DNA from: Treponema primitia ZAS-2
Lineage (GTDB): Bacteria; Spirochaetota; Spirochaetia; Treponematales; Breznakiellaceae
Assembly (NCBI RefSeq): GCF_000214375.1
Contig: NC_015578.1
Span: 558,001 to 622,000, forward strand
Length of the DNA stretch: 64,000 nucleotides
Direction of reading: 5' to 3'
Shown here: positions 55,376 through 64,000 of the stretch, in pieces
Position numbering within the stretch: position 1 is the first letter of the stretch
Layout of the letters: each line of letters starts with the position of its first letter
Notes under the pieces: model-generated
The model's database searches: none
Told to the model about the DNA's origin: nothing
Seen by the model: the letters and a program-made list of their open reading frames with translations, nothing else
Translations under genes and position numbers: made by a program

Positions 55376-56479
55376 TTATACTCCCATGCAGGTTCCCACT
55401 GAAATTGCGGTATCGATCATATAATGATCCTGCGGGACGGTTTTAACCCCTTCCGCAGGGACCCTGAGATCTACGGAGCTTATGGATTCCCCTTTCAGGG
55501 CGACCATCCTGCCGTATTCGCCTTTGGCCAGAAGTTTTGCCGCGGCGGTTCCCAGGCTGGTGGCCAGGACCCGATCGGAGGCGCTGGGTATGCCCCCTCG
55601 CTGCACATAGCCCAGCACCGTTGCCCTGGTTTCCAGGCCCGTTTCGGCCTCAATTTCCCCGGCTATCCGGTAGCCTATGGATGGAACCACAGTTTGTTCC
55701 CGGTATTTCTTTCGTTCCTTTTTGTCCATTGCCGCTTCCTCAATCGACATGGCCCCCTCGGCTACTACCACGATGGAAAAGCCCCTGCCGCTTTGGGTAC
55801 GTTTTTCCAGGTGGCGGCCTATGGCCTTAATGTCGTAGGGGATTTCCGGTATCAGGATGACGTCCCCCCCGCCGGCTATCCCCGCGTAGAGCGCCAGCCA
55901 ACCCGCCTTGTGGCCCATAAGCTCAATGATCATCACCCGGTTATGGCTCTGGGCGGTGGAATGGAGCCGGTCTATGGCCTCGGTGGCGATGGACAGGGCT
56001 GAGTGGAAGCCAAAGGTTCGGTCGGTGCCGATAATATCATTGTCGATGGTTTTTGGGAGCCCCAGGACATTCAGCCCCTCCTTGGCGAGGAGGTAGCCCG
56101 TGGTATTGGTGCCGTTCCCCCCCAGGACTACCAGGCAATCCAGGTTCAGTTTCCGGTAGTTTTCCTTAATCAGCTCTACCTTGTCTTCCTCGATGTCGCT
56201 GCTGTACTCCTTAGGCCGAGCCTTAAAGGGCTTTTCCCGGCTGGCCCCCAGGATGGTGCCCCCCCGGGTGAGGATCCCCATAAAGTCCACCGGCCGCAGT
56301 ATGCGCCAGTCCTCGTCGATGAGGCCCCGGTAGCCATTGGCGATACCCACAGCGGTCATGTTGTACCTGTCGTGGGCAGCCCGGCACACACCCCGGATGG
56401 CGGCGTTCAGTCCCGGGCAATCCCCCCCTGCGGTAAGGATCCCGAAGGTTTTTGTCGCACTCTGTTCTACGGCTGCCAT
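55376..56479 (-). CDS. pfkA: 6-phosphofructokinase
   Basis: The enzyme phosphorylates fructose 6-phosphate at C1. The 367-aa protein shows ILTAGGDCPGLNAAIRG (N-terminal phosphate-donor loop), GGNGT (about 110), PKTIDNDI and the fructose-6-phosphate-binding ELMGHKAGW. The Gly in GGNGT is typical of ATP enzymes, whereas the Lys of PKTIDND is typical of pyrophosphate enzymes. This Gly/Lys mix occurs in several mostly ATP-using subgroups, so donor use needs testing. AAGGGGG precedes the ATG. Confidence 0.9.
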   Translation of the reverse strand: MAAVEQSATKTFGILTAGGDCPGLNAAIRGVCRAAHDRYNMTAVGIANGYRGLIDEDWRILRPVDFMGILTRGGTILGASREKPFKARPKEYSSDIEEDKVELIKENYRKLNLDCLVVLGGNGTNTTGYLLAKEGLNVLGLPKTIDNDIIGTDRTFGFHSALSIATEAIDRLHSTAQSHNRVMIIELMGHKAGWLALYAGIAGGGDVILIPEIPYDIKAIGRHLEKRTQSGRGFSIVVVAEGAMSIEEAAMDKKERKKYREQTVVPSIGYRIAGEIEAETGLETRATVLGYVQRGGIPSASDRVLATSLGTAAAKLLAKGEYGRMVALKGESISSVDLRVPAEGVKTVPQDHYMIDTAISVGTCMGV

Positions 56480-57193
56480 GGCGGCCCCCTTGTGTTTGTT
56501 ACTTTTCCCGTCGATATAGTATTAGAGTTGTTTAAAAACCAACTAGGTTTCCTCACAAGTTCATTATATTAAAGAAAGAGACAAAATGGGAAGAACGGTA
56601 CTTTTAATATGCACTTTCGGCCTCCTGTTTTCCGGCACCCCGGGGCTCTTTGCCGACGAGGAAACCGAGCGGACTCTGAGGGCCTTTGCGGATCCTGCCC
56701 GGGTTTGGGGAACCGGGGTGGAGGGGGTGATTGAGGAAGCCTACCGCCAGTGCTTTAAGACCTATATCCTGGACGGCAAGGTGATGAACCTCCGTATGCC
56801 CTTTGCCCAAAACAACGAGCGGGACCAGCTTTCGGACCAGACCTGGGAATTCCAGGGGGGCGGCAAGGCTGATCCGGTTTCCCTGTGGGAAATTATCACC
56901 GGAATCCTGTACTCCGATGAATTTGAGAGCTATGCCGGAATTCTGGGGGACGGGAAGGAAAAGGTGATGATCCTGGACATCCCCACCAGAACCTGGACCA
57001 GTTCCCGTGATCTTTTTGACATAGCCCGAATGAAAGCCGGGGCCTACCGGGGCCTGCCCCACCGTCCCTATGTACTCGTAAATGGCGAGGGGCTCAGCGA
57101 AGCGGACGTGTACAATTATTTATATTGTCTGGGCTGGGTGGGTATGGACTGCTCGGGCTTTGTCTGGCATACCCTTAGCTATATAGCCCGCAA

Positions 57194-57201
57194 GGGGGGG
57201 G
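57194..57201. repeat. Poly-G tract (8) at the frame break
   Basis: Eight consecutive Gs lie exactly where the NlpC/P60 reading frame is lost. Confidence 0.9.
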
Positions 57202-57242
57202 TCACCTTGGCTGGGCCCTGCGCCGGGCCATCGGCATTCCCC

Positions 57243-57251
57243 GGGGGGGGG
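57243..57251. repeat. Second poly-G tract (9) in the same gene
   Basis: Nine Gs lie 41 bp after the first tract. In the present length the downstream frame reads through it correctly (IPRGGEPS). Confidence 0.9.
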
Positions 57252-57707
57252 AGCCTTCCTACTATGTGGGGACCTGGTTCTTCAATTCCCGGACACCGGA
57301 AATCATCGCCGTCCGGGATGAGATCCGCAGCATTAAACCTGCGGATGTGCTGCTCTTCCGGGGCTCCAGCGGGGGGGTGGTTCATTCCGCCATTATCCAA
57401 TCGGTGGATCTGAACGAGGGGGTCATCCGCTACCTCCAAAGCACCGACGAGGCGCCCCTGAACGAGCGGGGGGTCCACGAATCCCTCATCTACTTCAACC
57501 CCGCCCACCCCGAACTAAGCCTGGGCGACCCTTCCCTGGTCTGGACCCAGGCCCGGTACCCCTCCTTCCCGGGTGAAATGGCCTCGGCCTTCTCTGACGA
57601 CGGGGAACGCTACCGTGCCTTCGGCGGCGGGCGGGTGGTGCGGCTCCGGGCCCTGGCAGCGCCGATTCAGAAGATTAACCAGGGGCGATAGTGACTTCAA
57701 TCACGAT

Positions 57708-57747
57708 TTAAGAAATTTTTCTTAATAAAAGGCGCCATAGGTATGAT
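57708..57747 (+). promoter_or_regulatory. Promoter and palindrome upstream of the ORF6N gene
   Basis: The inverted repeat TTAAGAAA/TTTCTTAA (57708-57715 and 57718-57725) covers the weak -35 TTCTTA (57719-57724). TATGAT (57742-57747) follows after 17 nt. The ATG is 8 nt later, so the leader would be 0-2 nt. Confidence 0.5.
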
Positions 57748-57755
57748 AATTAACT

Positions 57756-58307
57756 ATGGACAAAGCAATCCCCATACAAACCTTTATTCGCGAAATTCGC
57801 GGGCGTAAAGTGATGCTTGATAGCGACTTGGCCGCTTTGTATCAGGTTGAGACCAAGGTGTTAAACCAGGCGGTAAAACGGAATATTGGGCGCTTTCCCT
57901 CGGACTTCATGTTCCAACTGGACCCGGAAGAATGGGAGACTTTGAGGTCACAAATTGTGACCACAAAAACCGATGAAAAAAGGGGCGGCCGGCGGGCGGC
58001 GCCATACGCATTTACCGAACATGGCATTTTAATGCTATCTAGTGTTTTAAAAAGCGATATCGCCATTGATGTGAATATCAAAATAATGCGGGTATTTGTT
58101 CAAATGCGCCAATATGCACTTTCACAAACCGATACAAGCGGGCAAATTGTGGAGTTACGTAGGCTATTGCTCCTTTATATTGATCGCAATGATAAACGGG
58201 TGGATGATATTCTCAGGGTGCTGAACAGTTTTATCGCAAGTCCACCTAAGACAAAGCCAATCGGCTTCAGGGCCAACCACGAAGATACAGGTAAAACGCC
58301 TCTCTGA
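57756..58307 (+). CDS. ORF6N-domain DNA-binding protein
   Basis: The 183-aa protein has the ORF6N (KilA-N-related) domain: IREIRGRKVMLDSDLAALYQ, then VKRNIGRFPSDFMFQLDPEE and PYAFTEHGILMLSSVLKS. Such proteins are common in phages and mobile elements and bind DNA. The C-terminal helices (QIVELRRLLLLYIDRNDKRV) may form a coiled coil. No ribosome site is present. A palindrome over its promoter suggests autoregulation. No other phage gene is nearby. Confidence 0.88.
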   Translation: MDKAIPIQTFIREIRGRKVMLDSDLAALYQVETKVLNQAVKRNIGRFPSDFMFQLDPEEWETLRSQIVTTKTDEKRGGRRAAPYAFTEHGILMLSSVLKSDIAIDVNIKIMRVFVQMRQYALSQTDTSGQIVELRRLLLLYIDRNDKRVDDILRVLNSFIASPPKTKPIGFRANHEDTGKTPL

Positions 58308-58398
58308 TTTTCTAGTTTGGTATAACTAACTCTTTACATTCCCCCGGAAGAATGGTATCTTAAAGATAGTTTTATCTAACATTTTGCCGAGGACCCTT

Positions 58399-59298
58399 AT
58401 GACCACCGATGTTCAGAATTCAAGAAATGATCTTCCCGATTTTTTCCGGGACCTTAAAAATGGGCTCCCCATACGGATGCTGGTCGCCCCGGCGGCCTTC
58501 GCCGTCCTGGAGGATCTTCCCCGCATCCTGGGGTATCTCCGTTCCCTGGGGGTTATGGCCTTTCATCCCGTACTGCCCTATGCGGATATTACCCTGTGGG
58601 CCTATTACCGCAGCCTGGGTGAATGTTCCGGGAAGCCCCTGATCACATCCGCCTGTGTCGGTATGAACTGGTTTCTTAAGCATACGCACCCGGAATACGC
58701 TGAATTTATTACCCCTGTGTACAGCCCCCTGCTCTGTACGGCCCGATACCTCCGGTCATACCGGGGGATAACGGAGCGCATTGCCTTTCTTTCCCCCTGT
58801 GTTTTAAAGCGCAGAGAATTTGTGCTGGAGAACCGTGAGGAACTGGTGCATTACAATGTTACTATCAATGCGCTTTCCGCATGGCTCAAAGAAAATCCTG
58901 TTGATATAAGCCAATATGAGCCTTGTCTGCCGGAAAGCGATGGATATGGACCGGGTTTAACCCTGGCTGCTTTCGGCAGTATCGGTAAATGCCTGTCCGC
59001 CCTGGATACCGGCGTGGAGTACCTGATTGAACAGGGGCTTGAGAATGCCGCCAGCCGTTTTTCGGAGCGGGGCGCCTTTTCGGAAACCCAGATGATACCC
59101 TTTGTGTTTGAAACCTACGCATGCGAAGGGGGCTGCGCTAATGGGTCGGGGGTCAGGGGAATGCAATACCCGGCGTCTAACGGCGGCGCCTTTCTTGAAA
59201 AAAGTACCGCCCCGGGAAAACCGGAGGCGGTACTGGAATTATTCTCATCCTATGACCAAACCCTGGACCGCGCTGATTTCCGTCACCGGCCCAATTGA
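58399..59298 (+). CDS. Stand-alone H-cluster-domain protein ([FeFe]-hydrogenase-like, probably sensory)
   Basis: The 299-aa protein corresponds to the H-cluster domain of [FeFe]-hydrogenases without any ferredoxin domain. All four H-cluster cysteines are present (L1 TSACVG, L2 SPCVLKRRE, L3 ETYACEGGCANG), as is the L2 Lys. The first L1 Cys, normally the proton relay, is Ala, and the L2 and L3 Met residues are Ser and Tyr. Such changes are seen in sensory HydS-type proteins rather than in fast catalysts. The ATG at 58399 has GAGGA upstream; a TTG five codons earlier is less likely. It converges with the nickel-transport operon. Confidence 0.8.
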   Translation: MTTDVQNSRNDLPDFFRDLKNGLPIRMLVAPAAFAVLEDLPRILGYLRSLGVMAFHPVLPYADITLWAYYRSLGECSGKPLITSACVGMNWFLKHTHPEYAEFITPVYSPLLCTARYLRSYRGITERIAFLSPCVLKRREFVLENREELVHYNVTINALSAWLKENPVDISQYEPCLPESDGYGPGLTLAAFGSIGKCLSALDTGVEYLIEQGLENAASRFSERGAFSETQMIPFVFETYACEGGCANGSGVRGMQYPASNGGAFLEKSTAPGKPEAVLELFSSYDQTLDRADFRHRPN

Positions 59299-59321
59299 AC
59301 CGGTGGCGCTGCGTTTAGTAC

Positions 59322-60968
59322 TTAATTAAAATTTTCAAGCACATACCCTTTCCGGGCTTCATTGGGAATGAACGAATATTTGTGGAAAATATCGTTCTCT
59401 CCCATGATCACAGAATAGTTATCATACCGGGTGTTATTGTAGGCAAAGAAACCGTCGGGGTACCAGAGCATGATACGCCTGGGGTGTTTGTTGAGAAGCC
59501 CCTGGAGGTAGTGGGATGCGGCGAGCCGTTCTTCCCCGCTTACTGCGGCTTCCCAGGCTACCATGGCCTCATCCCGTTCCTTGAAGGGGACGATGTCGTT
59601 TTTTTGTTCACCGAACAAGAGGACCATCATCATGTCATCATCCGCAAGGCCGTGGGGAACAAATTCGCCCACAGTCATGTTGTAGTTCCCGGTGACGTTC
59701 ACCGCCTCCGAATAGGCGGCGCTTTCCAGGGCCTCCACATGGGCCTTGAGGTTTATCGCCCCCAGGTGTTCGGTGATGATCTCTGCAGCCCGGACATAGA
59801 GAGGCGCCGAGGCGTCCACCAGGATGCGCCAGTTAATGGGATTACCCTCGGGGGTTTCCCTGAGCCCGTCGCCGTTCCGGTCTACATAACCCAGCTCGGT
59901 AAAAAGCTGGGCGGCCTTTTCGGGATCGTAGGGCTGGGAATTGTTGGGGCTGGTGTGGAACGAGCGGGGGTGGGGGTAGCCCACAGTACCGGTAATGCCC
60001 CGGCCGAGTCCCACGATGCGTAGAAGTTCGTCCCGGTTGATGGCGTAGCTTATGGCCTCCCTGAAAGCCAGGTCCCCGAAGGGCAGCTTGGTGGTGTCCA
60101 GGGTAATGCAGGCGCCCCAGAGGTAGGGGGTCTTAACGATAGTAACGTTGGGGACCTTGGACCATTCCTCCACCATTTCCGGCGGCAGGTTCCGGGCCGC
60201 CCCGTCGATCTCGCCGCTCCGCAGGGCGGTGAACATGGTGGAGAAATCCCGGATCACCACCAGGTTGAGCTTATTTACCAGGGGCTTTCCCAGATGGTAA
60301 TCCGCATTGGCTTCCAGTTTGTAGTATTCCCCCACTTTATAATCCACCAGCTTATAAGGGCCGGTACCTATGGACTTTCCCGTAAACTGCCGGGGGTCCT
60401 GGATGTTTTCCCATTGGGCCTTTTGAACAATGGGCAGCTCGGCGCAGGGTTCCCGATCAAAATAGGGCATGGGATAGGCCCCGGCTACCCGCAGGGTAAG
60501 ATCGTCAATAACCGTGATGCCTTCCCCGGGGAGACGGGGGGCGGAACTGGTATGATGGGAATAACGGTTATTTGAAGGCCCTTCCCGGTTATAGTCAATC
60601 GTAAATTTGACATCCGCAGAGGTGAGGGGGGTCCCGTCGTGCCATTTTATTCCGGGCTTGAGTTTGATCTCCCAAACCAGGTTGTCATCGGTAACCGGCC
60701 TGATATACTCCGCCAGGATCATCTTCGGCGCTGGGCCATAAGGATTAGGCCCCGCGAGCTTTTCGTTGATCGCGTCCAGGACCCAGGGGCTATAGGACCC
60801 GCCCCCCCAAGTGGTAACGCTCCCGGCGTCATCATAAATACCAATGGTAAGCTCCTCCGCCGTCTGGGGCCCCCTTCCGGAACCATCCCCGGAAGATCCG
60901 GTCTTTTTCTGTCCACAAGACATGAGAACAGAAATACAAACTAAAAAAACCAAAACACGCGTTTTCAT
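59322..60968 (-). CDS. ABC transporter substrate-binding lipoprotein (family 5; nickel or peptide)
   Basis: The 548-aa SBP_bac_5 family receptor has a signal peptide with lipobox LMSC (MKTRVLVFLVCISVLMSCGQ). Family blocks are WEIKLKPGIKWHDGTPLTSADVKF-like around 105-125, GTGPYKLVDYKVGEYYKLEA and LAFREAISYAINRDELL. Members bind peptides, nickel or haem. Its place beside cooC, a NicO nickel transporter and a DppF/NikE-like ATPase favours nickel or a nickel chelate. I start at ATG 60968 with GAGGAG upstream, not at the in-frame start 12 codons earlier. Confidence 0.85.
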   Translation of the reverse strand: MKTRVLVFLVCISVLMSCGQKKTGSSGDGSGRGPQTAEELTIGIYDDAGSVTTWGGGSYSPWVLDAINEKLAGPNPYGPAPKMILAEYIRPVTDDNLVWEIKLKPGIKWHDGTPLTSADVKFTIDYNREGPSNNRYSHHTSSAPRLPGEGITVIDDLTLRVAGAYPMPYFDREPCAELPIVQKAQWENIQDPRQFTGKSIGTGPYKLVDYKVGEYYKLEANADYHLGKPLVNKLNLVVIRDFSTMFTALRSGEIDGAARNLPPEMVEEWSKVPNVTIVKTPYLWGACITLDTTKLPFGDLAFREAISYAINRDELLRIVGLGRGITGTVGYPHPRSFHTSPNNSQPYDPEKAAQLFTELGYVDRNGDGLRETPEGNPINWRILVDASAPLYVRAAEIITEHLGAINLKAHVEALESAAYSEAVNVTGNYNMTVGEFVPHGLADDDMMMVLLFGEQKNDIVPFKERDEAMVAWEAAVSGEERLAASHYLQGLLNKHPRRIMLWYPDGFFAYNNTRYDNYSVIMGENDIFHKYSFIPNEARKGYVLENFN

Positions 60969-61013
60969 AAAAACACTCCTCTTCTTATCATTCATTACCA
61001 CCACTGTGGCATT

Positions 61014-61784
61014 TTAAATTCCCAGATCTTGAACAATTTTATTAATATGTTCCCGCATCATGGGGGAACGTTCGTAAAGCGCTGCCCCCTGCCGTTCTGC
61101 GGACACCACCTCATTATCCAGGGGAAGAAAACCGGCAAAGGTGAATTCGGGCATCTCATCTTTCAGAAATTGTATGTCCTCCGGGGAACGTATCTTGTTT
61201 CCCAGGGCGTAGCCATGCTGTACACCTAAATCCAGGGACATCTTCAGGATTTCTTTCGCAGCTTTAATGCTCCGGGTTCCCGGTTCCACCACCAGAAACA
61301 TTGCGTCCACCCCCTTGGCGGTTCCCCGGCCCATATGTTCCGTCCCGGCCACCATGTCCATGATGACCGTTTCCTTTTCCTTTAAAATGAGGTGGGTCAC
61401 CAGAGCCTTGAGCATGGCGTTCTCCGCGCAGGCGCAGCCTTGATCTGCCCCCCGGACTGCGCCCATCATAAGAAAGCTGATGTTTTTTATCCGCCGGGAA
61501 AATTTTTCCGGAATATCCTTTACCCGGGGGTTGGTCTTAAAGAAGGAGCCGTACTCGCCGCTTTTAGCCCCGGTCCTTTCCTCAAGGAGATCCCGCATAT
61601 CAATAATGGGCCGTATCTCGGCGATTTCCTCTGGGGAAAAACCGAGGGCCTCTCCCAGAGTAGGGTTTACATCCGCATCAATGGCATAGACTTCCCGGCC
61701 CTGCTCGGCAAGGCAGTAGGTCAAAAGGGCAGTAAAGGTGGTTTTGCCCACCCCGCCTTTGCCGCATACCGCAATTTTTTTCAT
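61014..61784 (-). CDS. cooC: CO dehydrogenase maturation ATPase CooC
   Basis: The 256-aa MinD/NifH-type P-loop ATPase helps insert nickel into the C-cluster of CO dehydrogenase. It shows the deviant Walker A GKGGVGKTT (about 8-16), YAIDADVNPTLGEALG, a CxC metal site in GCACAENA (about 118), and MDMVAGTEHMGRGT. AGGAGG is about 12 nt before the ATG. It follows the NicO gene by 16 bp and precedes the binding-protein gene by 45 bp. This implies the organism makes a nickel CODH, whose genes lie outside the window. Confidence 0.93.
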   Translation of the reverse strand: MKKIAVCGKGGVGKTTFTALLTYCLAEQGREVYAIDADVNPTLGEALGFSPEEIAEIRPIIDMRDLLEERTGAKSGEYGSFFKTNPRVKDIPEKFSRRIKNISFLMMGAVRGADQGCACAENAMLKALVTHLILKEKETVIMDMVAGTEHMGRGTAKGVDAMFLVVEPGTRSIKAAKEILKMSLDLGVQHGYALGNKIRSPEDIQFLKDEMPEFTFAGFLPLDNEVVSAERQGAALYERSPMMREHINKIVQDLGI

Positions 61785-61800
61785 GTCCTGTTTTTTCCTC

Positions 61801-63621
61801 CTATATAAATGAAGTCTTAATCATCAAAACGCCTAAGGCGCTTATAAACAGTGAACTGAAATAGGGAAGGCTTTGGAGAACCAGGGCAAAACGCCGTTGG
61901 CCCGCCAGGAGCCGCTTGGTCAAAACAATGGCCATTCCCACAAGGATAAGGGCGAAGGCAAGGCCCAGGCTGAAGAGGAAGATGATCCCCATGCCCATGC
62001 CCACCTTGCCCGCAGCGGTGGCTACCAGGAGTACCGCCAGGGCATCCGGGCAGGGGATGATCCCCCCGGTGATGCCCAGGGAGATCACCCTTCCCCAGGA
62101 AAGCTGGGTTTTCGGCATGGTAATCGCCCCCCGGGAAGCGTAGTTGCGGACCGCGCTGAAAAGAAGTTCCCGGGGCTCCTGGACAACGGCGTCGCTTTTT
62201 TGGATGAAAGTTTTTTCGCCGAGCTTTCCTATATATTTGATAGTTCTCTCCGACTGGGCCACCACCGCATCCACTGCTCCGGTTTTTATGGCCATTCTGA
62301 AAAACTCAGAACGCTGCCGTTCCTGGATAGCCCCGGGAAGCCTGACATGGGCGGAGCAGCCCGGAGAGCAGAGGGTAAAATTTTCCGCCCCCGCAGCCTT
62401 AAGGGATTCCTGAAGCTCACTGTCATCCTGGGCAATCATGAGGGCCTCATTCGCCTCCGCCGCCTGTCCGTCAATCAGAATATTCACCGTATCCCGTTCC
62501 AGTATCCTGAGGTTGGGGAGCAGGTGCGCATGATCCGTCTCCTTTCCCAGGATCCTTCTGATAAAGCTCCGTATGCCTATACCAATGATGAAAATACCGC
62601 AAGCCACGCTTAAGACCGGGACAAACTCCCCGGGTAGAAAAACTTTGGCCGCCGTGGAGGCCAGGAGGCCGAAGCCGTAGATACTTATGGTGTGGGTCAG
62701 GGTAAGGACTATACCCAAGCAGAAGGCGTGCAGCACCGTTCCCTGGTTGGCGATCAGGAAGGCCCCCACCAGGGCCTTGCCATGGCCGGGGGTAAAGGCG
62801 TGGAGGAAGCCTACACCCAGGGCGAGGATCAAAAGCAGCACAGGAATCCTACGGGATCCCGTGCCCCGGATAAAGTCCATGATCCCGGAACGTTCAAATC
62901 CGCTGCGGATAAATTCCCTGATGGCGGCTGTGGATAGGGGGGGCTTCTTTTTTTCAGGGGCCGCGGAGATCGGGAGCAAAGCCGCCGCCCTAGTCCGTTC
63001 AGCAGCCATGGCCGCCGCAAGGGCCGGGTCCAGGGCATACTGCAGCTCAAGTACGTCCTGAAGGAATTCATGCCGCTTTTCGCTCAGGAAAGCTATTTCT
63101 TCCGGGGCATTGTTTACGAGGCTTAAGGAATATACCGCGATTTCCGGGTAAAAAGAAAATTCATAACGCAAATTGCAACGAAGGTATCCGCCCTGATCCA
63201 TTTCTGCTTCCGTGGTTTCTGCCCTGCCTTTTTTAGTAACTAGTGCATATTCCAGGATTATGGTAGAAACTCCGGCGGCGAAATAATCCCATTCAGAGGC
63301 GGTGAAATTTTCAAATGACAGTTTTTCTGTCTTGCCGTCAAAGTCAACCTTCAGGGTTTTCAAAAAAAATTCAGAAAACGCCAGGATATCCTTTTCTTCA
63401 AAAATTTTGTTTTTATCAGGATCCAGAGTTTTTAGAAAGGCTGTACTGAACAGAACCCCGGATGAAATATCAAATTTAAAGTTGACAGTATCCTTGTTTA
63501 CTTCGACCGTGGTTTTTACGGCGATCTCGTCGGCAATGTGCGCAAACAGGGGGAGGGGAAAGGAAATAAACAGCAGCCCAAGAAGGGCCGCAAGTTTTGC
63601 CGAGGGGATCATTTTGTTCAT
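61801..63621 (-). CDS. NicO-family nickel/cobalt transporter with exported N-terminal domain and large loop insertion
   Basis: The 606-aa protein has a signal peptide (about 1-27), a beta-rich extracytoplasmic domain (about 28-215, DUF1007-like), then the NicO helices. The HAFTPGHGKALVGAF metal-site motif lies near 275 and GGIIPCPDALAVLL near 510. Between the helix groups there is an insertion of about 150 aa (from KETDHAHLLPN to AVVQEP) with CSPGCSAH and a long helical part, not usual for the family. It overlaps the upstream ATPase gene by 4 bp and is followed by cooC, so nickel supply for CODH is the likely role. Confidence 0.85.
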   Translation of the reverse strand: MNKMIPSAKLAALLGLLFISFPLPLFAHIADEIAVKTTVEVNKDTVNFKFDISSGVLFSTAFLKTLDPDKNKIFEEKDILAFSEFFLKTLKVDFDGKTEKLSFENFTASEWDYFAAGVSTIILEYALVTKKGRAETTEAEMDQGGYLRCNLRYEFSFYPEIAVYSLSLVNNAPEEIAFLSEKRHEFLQDVLELQYALDPALAAAMAAERTRAAALLPISAAPEKKKPPLSTAAIREFIRSGFERSGIMDFIRGTGSRRIPVLLLILALGVGFLHAFTPGHGKALVGAFLIANQGTVLHAFCLGIVLTLTHTISIYGFGLLASTAAKVFLPGEFVPVLSVACGIFIIGIGIRSFIRRILGKETDHAHLLPNLRILERDTVNILIDGQAAEANEALMIAQDDSELQESLKAAGAENFTLCSPGCSAHVRLPGAIQERQRSEFFRMAIKTGAVDAVVAQSERTIKYIGKLGEKTFIQKSDAVVQEPRELLFSAVRNYASRGAITMPKTQLSWGRVISLGITGGIIPCPDALAVLLVATAAGKVGMGMGIIFLFSLGLAFALILVGMAIVLTKRLLAGQRRFALVLQSLPYFSSLFISALGVLMIKTSFI

Positions 63622-64000
63622 ACAGTCAGGGCATAACCCGAATCATCCGGTGCAGCCGCAGGAAGCGTCGGGGTCTCCACAGCGGAGATCAATTCTCTGG
63701 TATACCCATGGACGGGATGATGGATTAACTTGTGGGCGTCCGCCTCTTCCACCACCGCCCCTTCATGCATCACCATCAGGCGGTCGCAGAAATGGTAGGC
63801 CAGGGAAAGGTCGTGGGTAATGAAGATGTACCCCATATTGTAACGGCTCCGCAGCTCTTCCATGAGCTTTAACAGTTCCTTGCGCAGGGAAGCGTCCAGC
63901 ATGGAGCTGGGTTCATCGGCTATGATGTACCGGGGTTTGGCCACCACTGCCCGGGCAAAGGAGAGACGCTGCCGCTGTCCTCCGGAAAGCTCATTTGGGG
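63618..64000 (-). CDS. ABC transporter ATPase (DppF/NikE type), N-terminus outside window
   Basis: The last 127 or so codons of an ATPase subunit run off the right edge. The signature motif LSGGQRQRLSFARA lies at the very edge, followed by Walker B IIADEPSSMLDAS, the H-loop ITHDLSLAY and the family-typical C-terminus HPVHGYTRELI. It belongs to the oligopeptide/nickel importer class. Its stop overlaps the NicO start (ATGA), so translation is coupled, and it probably energises import of the compound bound by the lipoprotein at 59322-60968. Confidence 0.88.
   Translation of the reverse strand, partial: PNELSGGQRQRLSFARAVVAKPRYIIADEPSSMLDASLRKELLKLMEELRSRYNMGYIFITHDLSLAYHFCDRLMVMHEGAVVEEADAHKLIHHPVHGYTRELISAVETPTLPAAAPDDSGYALTV

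Follow-up and report, generated by a model that had tools for sequence, protein, structure and literature searches.

A lone [FeFe]-hydrogenase H-domain of sensory ancestry linked to a NifHDK-like and metal-uptake gene system in gut spirochaetes

The window analysed here, a 64,000-nucleotide stretch of the Treponema primitia ZAS-2 genome, contains a gene (58399–59298, + strand) for a 299-residue protein that consists of an [FeFe]-hydrogenase H-domain standing on its own. Both the sensory ancestry of this H-domain and its linkage to genes for a NifHDK-like reductase and metal transport are well supported. Taken together, the data lead us to favour, tentatively, a reading in which the lone H-domain acts as a cluster-binding accessory (a redox or assembly factor) of the NifHDK-like/metal system and is no longer a phosphorelay sensor.

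Results

A free-standing H-domain protein under purifying selection

The reading frame opens with an ATG at 58399, just 3′ of a GAGG ribosome-binding site, and its stop codon ends at 59298; intergenic DNA separates the gene from its neighbours by ∼92 bp on the 5′ side and 23 bp on the 3′ side. PF02906 is the sole Pfam domain of the protein (67 bits against a cut-off of 22.1), and profile and fold searches with the protein lead to [FeFe] hydrogenases. Pfam detected no ferredoxin (Fer4), FeS, PAS, HK or MCP domain in the protein or adjoining it. A first-pass annotation had described a lone H-domain without ferredoxin, PAS or kinase domains, and the reading frame, domain content and motifs are as it described them. 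No signal stood out clearly against chance in scans for promoters and terminators, and no Rfam RNA element was matched in positions 56000–64000 of the window. An ORF6N-domain gene of the phage or mobile-element type (57756–58307) lies just upstream and is not conserved beside the orthologues.

The T. primitia ZAS-2 genome, a single contig of 4,059,867 bp, encodes nine PF02906 proteins, among which the lone H-domain protein has the lowest score and by far the shortest frame. Its relatives at ∼30% identity are Fer4-H-FeS-(PAS/GAF)-HisKA-HATPase-REC kinases and Fer4-H-FeS-MCP proteins. The lone proteins begin where the Fer4 part of the fused relatives ends and terminate before the FeS domain, and the ∼50 residues past their last cysteine align with the histidine kinase (HK) type. 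An H-domain-MCP fusion, a putative H2 chemoreceptor, is encoded elsewhere in T. primitia (L047, 9606–11756) as well as at L046, and is present in many relatives. The hydrogenases of T. primitia were reportedly surveyed by Ballor in 2012, in a study that PMC4070709 cites.

A profile built from the first two lone proteins was searched against 200 genomes of the same family and yielded seven lone loci at 165–620 bits, followed by fused proteins at 126 bits or less. No additional lone member was found in 395 genomes of the class. A scan of ∼85,000 species, with a reach confined to close relatives, recovered five lone members, including those of Breznakiella homolactica RmG30 and of termite-gut spirochaete metagenome-assembled genomes (MAGs). 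The free-standing form is indeed as unusual as had been proposed, being one small clade across all three collections: six intact orthologous members and one decayed member, all from a single family of spirochaetes that inhabit the guts of termites and cockroaches.

The six intact proteins share 42–78% pairwise amino-acid identity, and 71 columns of their alignment do not vary, all site residues among them. Five genera have kept the frame intact, with unchanged boundaries and unchanged site residues. The dN/dS ratio is 0.21 for the one unsaturated pair (G184/G185, dS 0.64) and roughly 0.14–0.31 for the more distant, mostly saturated pairs. The clade is therefore under purifying selection, and the fixation of the motifs at this level of divergence, together with a dN/dS of 0.21, reflects neither chance nor decay. 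A truncated pseudogene is ruled out on the same grounds, with the exception of the copy in genome G127 (L085, 3423–4070), which has an internal TGA and an internal TAA and still sits in a NifHDK-like/FecCD cluster. This decayed copy could suggest that the family as a whole is a functionless relic of a sensor kinase that is being lost, an idea that is highly improbable given five genera with uniform, intact genes and a dN/dS of ∼0.2.

The cluster site and sensory ancestry

All the site motifs of an H-domain can be located in the protein (reference numbering is that of CpI). In the L1 motif ITSACVGMN (58642–58668, +; I82-T-S-A85-C86), C86 corresponds to the cluster ligand C300 and A85 takes the place of the proton-relay C299. 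The L2 motif LSPCVLKRREF (58789–58821, +; S132-P-C134-V-L-K137-R-R-E140) provides C134, K137 and E140, equivalent to C355, K358 and E361, with S132 at the position of M353. The L3 motif ETYACEGGCANGSG (59110–59151, +; E-T-Y240-A-C242-E-G-G-C246) contains C242 and C246, equivalent to C499 and C503, and Y240 replaces M497. The four [4Fe-4S]H ligands (C86, C134, C242 and C246) are invariant in 6/6 intact members, and P31, K137 and E140 are likewise fixed in the alignment. Equivalents of K358, E361 and P231 are retained and those of P301 and Q325 are lost. In place of the group A trait set C299/M353/M497, all six proteins have Ala/Ser/Tyr; the tyrosine is unique to the lone clade among the rows compared. 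The first reading of the letters had noted four retained cluster cysteines, an alanine for the proton-relay cysteine and two altered methionines, and each of these holds throughout the clade.

An additional invariant cysteine, Cys113, lies in the sequence SPLLC (58723–58737, +) and is common to HK-type H-domains; the column is Cys in 6/6 lone and 12/12 HK proteins and His in 26/26 MCP proteins. W67, Y117, Y121 and the C-terminal extension are also common to the lone clade and the HK type.

In maximum-likelihood trees the six lone proteins form one clade (support 100/100), which is placed as sister to the HK and MCP fusions within the sensory H-domains (100/99), apart from the group A and B-like rows. 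The stem branch of the clade is long (1.58) and the tree tool issued a long-branch warning; with long branches meeting, the exact sister is thus less sure than the sensory membership. Placement inside a normal catalytic group would have refuted the first reading; in the comparison with the hydrogenase groups that had been advised, the clade fell outside groups A and B, and the reading withstood this check. The substitutions were also correctly judged to be of the sensory type: Ala occupies the C299 position in ∼43% of sensory sequences (PMC10055695), and the clade sits with sensory H-domains. A catalytic hydrogenase is ruled out by the site residues and the tree placement. An AlphaFold model of the protein, computed from only six sequences (pLDDT 73.6, pTM 0.75; weak at residues 243–272), can be superposed along its entire length on [FeFe] hydrogenases (Foldseek 4.8e-11; VIA Z ∼20 against both CbA5H and CpI).

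The putative 2Fe site and the maturation genes

The tyrosine at M497 and the lost P301 and Q325 equivalents are predicted to alter the 2Fe pocket, and the CpI M497L variant is without a properly integrated 2Fe cluster (PMC10055695). Retention of the K358 and E361 equivalents would argue the other way, being expected if the 2Fe site still mattered. We regard the presence of a 2Fe site in the T. primitia protein as somewhat doubtful.

T. primitia has HydE, HydF and HydG. None of the three was found, at the thresholds used, in the closed chromosome of B. homolactica RmG30 (NZ_CP067089.2), nor was a match to CODH. This chromosome retains five PF02906 proteins, including one with a strong match to the group A type, so that the missing maturases may reflect an assembly gap or an unassembled replicon. 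HydG was found in one of the six genomes with an intact lone H-domain gene, namely T. primitia; the four others besides B. homolactica are incomplete MAGs. Absence of HydG is not rare in the family, as 28 of 45 good-quality genomes have the gene. With neither HydEFG nor CODH found, 2Fe maturation and CODH do not account for the presence of the H-domain gene and the Ni/NifHDK island in B. homolactica, and the CooC-like ATPase and Nik genes of that island probably do not serve a CODH.

These data bear on the possibility that the protein donates electrons from H2, as a slow uptake hydrogenase of a single domain that would feed the NifH-like protein directly, by analogy with the exchange between algal HydA1 and ferredoxin. 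Its operon position beside NifHDK-like genes would suit such a role, a minimal H-domain can function in the absence of F-clusters, the structural matches include CrHydA1, and TmHydS, which naturally has Ala at C299, retains activity (PMC10055695). However, the proton path is missing (C299A, and Trp67 in the E279/E282 region), a tyrosine occupies the M497 position, and the B. homolactica orthologue occurs without detected HydE, HydF or HydG. Direct donation of H2-derived electrons is accordingly quite unlikely.

Linkage to a NifHDK-like and metal-uptake system

In T. primitia the H-domain gene is the outermost gene of a Nik/CooC/NicO/NifHDK-like island. It is convergent with, and separated by 23 bp from, a gene for an SBP_bac_5 binding protein of the NikA/OppA type (59322–61004, −; PF00496, 239 bits), and the same island is found in B. 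homolactica (G039) and in genomes G134 and G128. Next come a CooC/MinD-like P-loop ATPase with CbiA/ParA/NifH-type matches (61014–61784, −; orthologues at L107 and L112), which we take to be CooC-like from its sequence type, and a NicO-type Ni/Co transport-related membrane protein (61801–63621, −; PF03824 above cut-off; orthologues at L107, L109, L112 and L114). The 3′ end of an 899-residue Nik/Opp permease/ATPase fusion (63618–63998, −; L105, 5619–8318) is cut by the window edge. A second permease gene follows, and then NifH-, NifD- and NifK-like genes assigned by Pfam (L105, 9412–10179, 10176–11573 and 11607–12896; genome positions 625411–628895), which lie on the other strand. The NifHDK-like part begins ∼3.4 kb beyond the window edge, and hence was invisible from the window alone; the NifD-like gene is ∼9 kb from the H-domain gene.

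The association recurs in relatives. Genomes G184 and G185 share the order NifH-NifD-NifK-H-domain-FecCD permease-ABC ATPase-PF01497 binding protein, in which the NifK-like and H-domain genes overlap by 4 bp (ATGA). In G175 the H-domain gene and the binding-protein gene of such a NifHDK-like cluster converge, and the remnant in G127 is at the same place, beside the binding-protein gene. In B. homolactica and G120 the H-domain gene is unlinked to the nitrogenase-like (nfl) genes. Linkage to NifHDK-like genes is thus seen at five of the seven lone loci. A NifD-like gene is present in 6/7 lone-H genomes compared with 16/200 genomes of the family (P = 6.5e-7; P = 5.8e-6 when counted by genus; both values ignore shared ancestry). 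The seventh genome is an 82%-complete MAG whose genus-mates have the NifD-like gene. Conversely, 10 of the 16 genomes with a NifD-like gene are without a lone H-domain gene, indicating that the H-domain is dispensable to the NifHDK-like enzyme. The Ni/NifHDK island is found with no H-domain gene alongside in G134, G128, G173 and G176 (partly, at contig ends) and in B. homolactica.

The genes could be neighbours through shared metal regulation only, with the H-domain working elsewhere, for instance in metal or Fe-S homeostasis, and making no contact with the NifHDK-like proteins. Such an arrangement would fit the abutment of the H-domain gene with a transporter binding-protein gene, and not with NifHDK, in G000, G175 and G127, and its unlinked position in two other genomes. 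The NifK-like and H-domain genes overlap translationally in G184 and G185, however, and the co-occurrence persists even at a distance; both speak against this arrangement and make it unlikely.

The genes immediately flanking the H-domain gene in the window encode neither a kinase nor a PAS, MCP or response-regulator protein, and no gene of this kind recurs at the orthologous loci; we therefore reject a sensor split into two genes with the kinase encoded alongside. In B. homolactica a FIST-domain gene (L040, 10217–11413) lies downstream of the lone H-domain gene at a distance of 37 bp, and it does not recur at the other copies. Neither this gene nor the ORF6N gene was accepted as a partner, each having been found once only. 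The search for conserved neighbours that the first-pass annotation had recommended revealed recurrent neighbours, the genes for NifHDK-like proteins and metal or chelate importers, and no recurrent signalling gene.

The main rival to an accessory role is an H2 (or CO or redox) sensor that works by protein contact, a single-domain H-cluster protein whose shape would respond to H2 and which would thereby modulate either the NifHDK-like enzyme or the importer, or else act on a regulator encoded elsewhere. Descent from sensory H-domains, the C299A and M353S traits typical of sensors (PMC10055695), the retained K358, E361 and full set of cysteines, and the HydE, HydF and HydG genes of T. primitia are all in keeping with a sensor, and dispensable accessory genes are often regulators. 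Yet the protein has no output domain, no kinase, regulator or PAS neighbour recurs, the FIST gene appears once, and of the six genomes whose copy is intact HydG was found in just one, B. homolactica lacking all three maturases and the remaining four being incomplete MAGs. We consider this alternative somewhat unlikely. Recurrence of a NifHDK-like reductase and metal or chelate importers as neighbours fits an accessory of the NifHDK-like system better than a free H2 sensor. Of the interpretation first offered, the sensory-type substitutions and the unusual form stand; the proposal that H2 is signalled to another protein finds no support in these data, with no kinase-like output partner close by, and stays as the main rival. 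The scaffold role that was suggested alongside it is a live option.

The NifHDK-like system

The NifH-like protein is nearest to the CfbC and NifH models, below their cut-offs, and the NifD- and NifK-like proteins weakly match NifE/NifD. The NifD-like protein retains Cys 44, 69, 73, 133 and 228; the NifK-like protein retains only Cys 59. Since the NifHDK-like clusters showed no B-type radical SAM gene, our guess is that their chemistry is [4Fe-4S]-only, like that of DPOR and CfbCD (PMC12552129). Transport genes near the NifHDK-like genes are of the Nik/Opp, NicO, FecCD/BtuC-like and CbiMQ types. The NifHDK-like system occurs with Nik/Opp-type, NicO, CooC-like, FecCD or CbiMQ genes at L105, L107, L108, L109, L112, L114 and L115. 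A SAM-dependent methyltransferase gene (L107, 8001–8771) lies between the NifD- and NifK-like genes of B. homolactica. On the NifHDK-like/FecCD contig of G121, a cobalamin riboswitch (RF00174, 55.6 bits; L108, 18359–18563) is present, not directly upstream of the nfl genes. NifD-like homologues are also present in other treponemes, whose family yielded no lone H-domain in the search of 395 class genomes.

Discussion

The favoured reading, an accessory of the NifHDK-like/metal system, can be put as a sequence of steps. The ancestor would have been a sensory, group C-like [FeFe]-hydrogenase H-domain of the histidine-kinase type, and both the N-terminal 2x[4Fe-4S] ferredoxin and the C-terminal FeS-PAS/GAF-kinase-receiver part would have been shed. 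The remaining H-domain may then have been recruited to a NifHDK-like reductase coupled to the uptake of metal or metal chelates. Its [4Fe-4S] cluster would be held by the four invariant cysteines, and the protein could attach to either the NifDK-like or the NifH-like component, serving it as a redox or assembly factor, through electron relay or cluster transfer, by analogy with Nar1. The [2Fe] part would be optional, and at least one orthologue probably lacks it. The narrower proposal of a sensory H-domain turned redox partner or cluster carrier of a reductase tied to nickel or metal-chelate uptake, possibly with the [4Fe-4S] cluster alone, is possible and is put forward with less confidence.

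Two of the most intricate iron-sulphur systems in biology belong to H-domains and to nitrogenase-family reductases, and to our knowledge these proteins are not known to work together directly. We know of no nitrogenase-family system with a part derived from an [FeFe] hydrogenase; the lone H-domain would be the first such part, if the reading is true. A conserved operon coupling the two with metal importers would offer a way into an uncharacterised nitrogenase-like clade and into the capabilities of an H-domain without its 2Fe site. The case also counsels caution, in that a PF02906 gene in a termite-gut genome is not automatically a hydrogenase or an H2 sensor.

Among known systems, the Nfl group IV enzymes (CfbCD, MarHDK and IsrHDK) and DPOR (group V) are comparable through their NifH/D/K-like genes, and differ in that we saw no B-type radical SAM gene in the cluster. 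The parts of PMC11423573 and PMC12552129 consulted describe no H-domain protein in Nfl systems, and a literature search for a link between H-domains and nitrogenase-like enzymes found none. Nar1/NARF is an H-domain-like protein that handles Fe-S clusters without H2 chemistry (PMC6006210); the likeness is a functional analogy only, Nar1 being eukaryotic and equipped with an N-terminal Fd-like domain. Algal HydA1 (Chlamydomonas) is, like the lone protein, a single H-domain without Fer4, and the model aligns with it at Z ∼19. HydA1 is catalytic and keeps C299, the methionines and the proton path; it belongs to another part of the H-domain family. The group D protein TamHydS is a putative sensor with altered H-cluster surroundings (PMC13104023); it has N- and C-terminal [4Fe-4S] clusters and PAS, neither of which is present in the lone protein, and our tree is without a named group D sequence. 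The closest counterparts are the group C HydS proteins (TmHydS and the treponeme HK and MCP fusions), which fall in the same large clade and share the H-domain fold, the four cysteines, K358/E361 and the replacement of C299 and M353. Unlike them, the lone protein is without Fer4, FeS-PAS and a kinase or MCP output, has a tyrosine at M497 and S-A-C-(V/A/I)-G instead of x-x-C-P, and is encoded in linkage with NifHDK-like genes.
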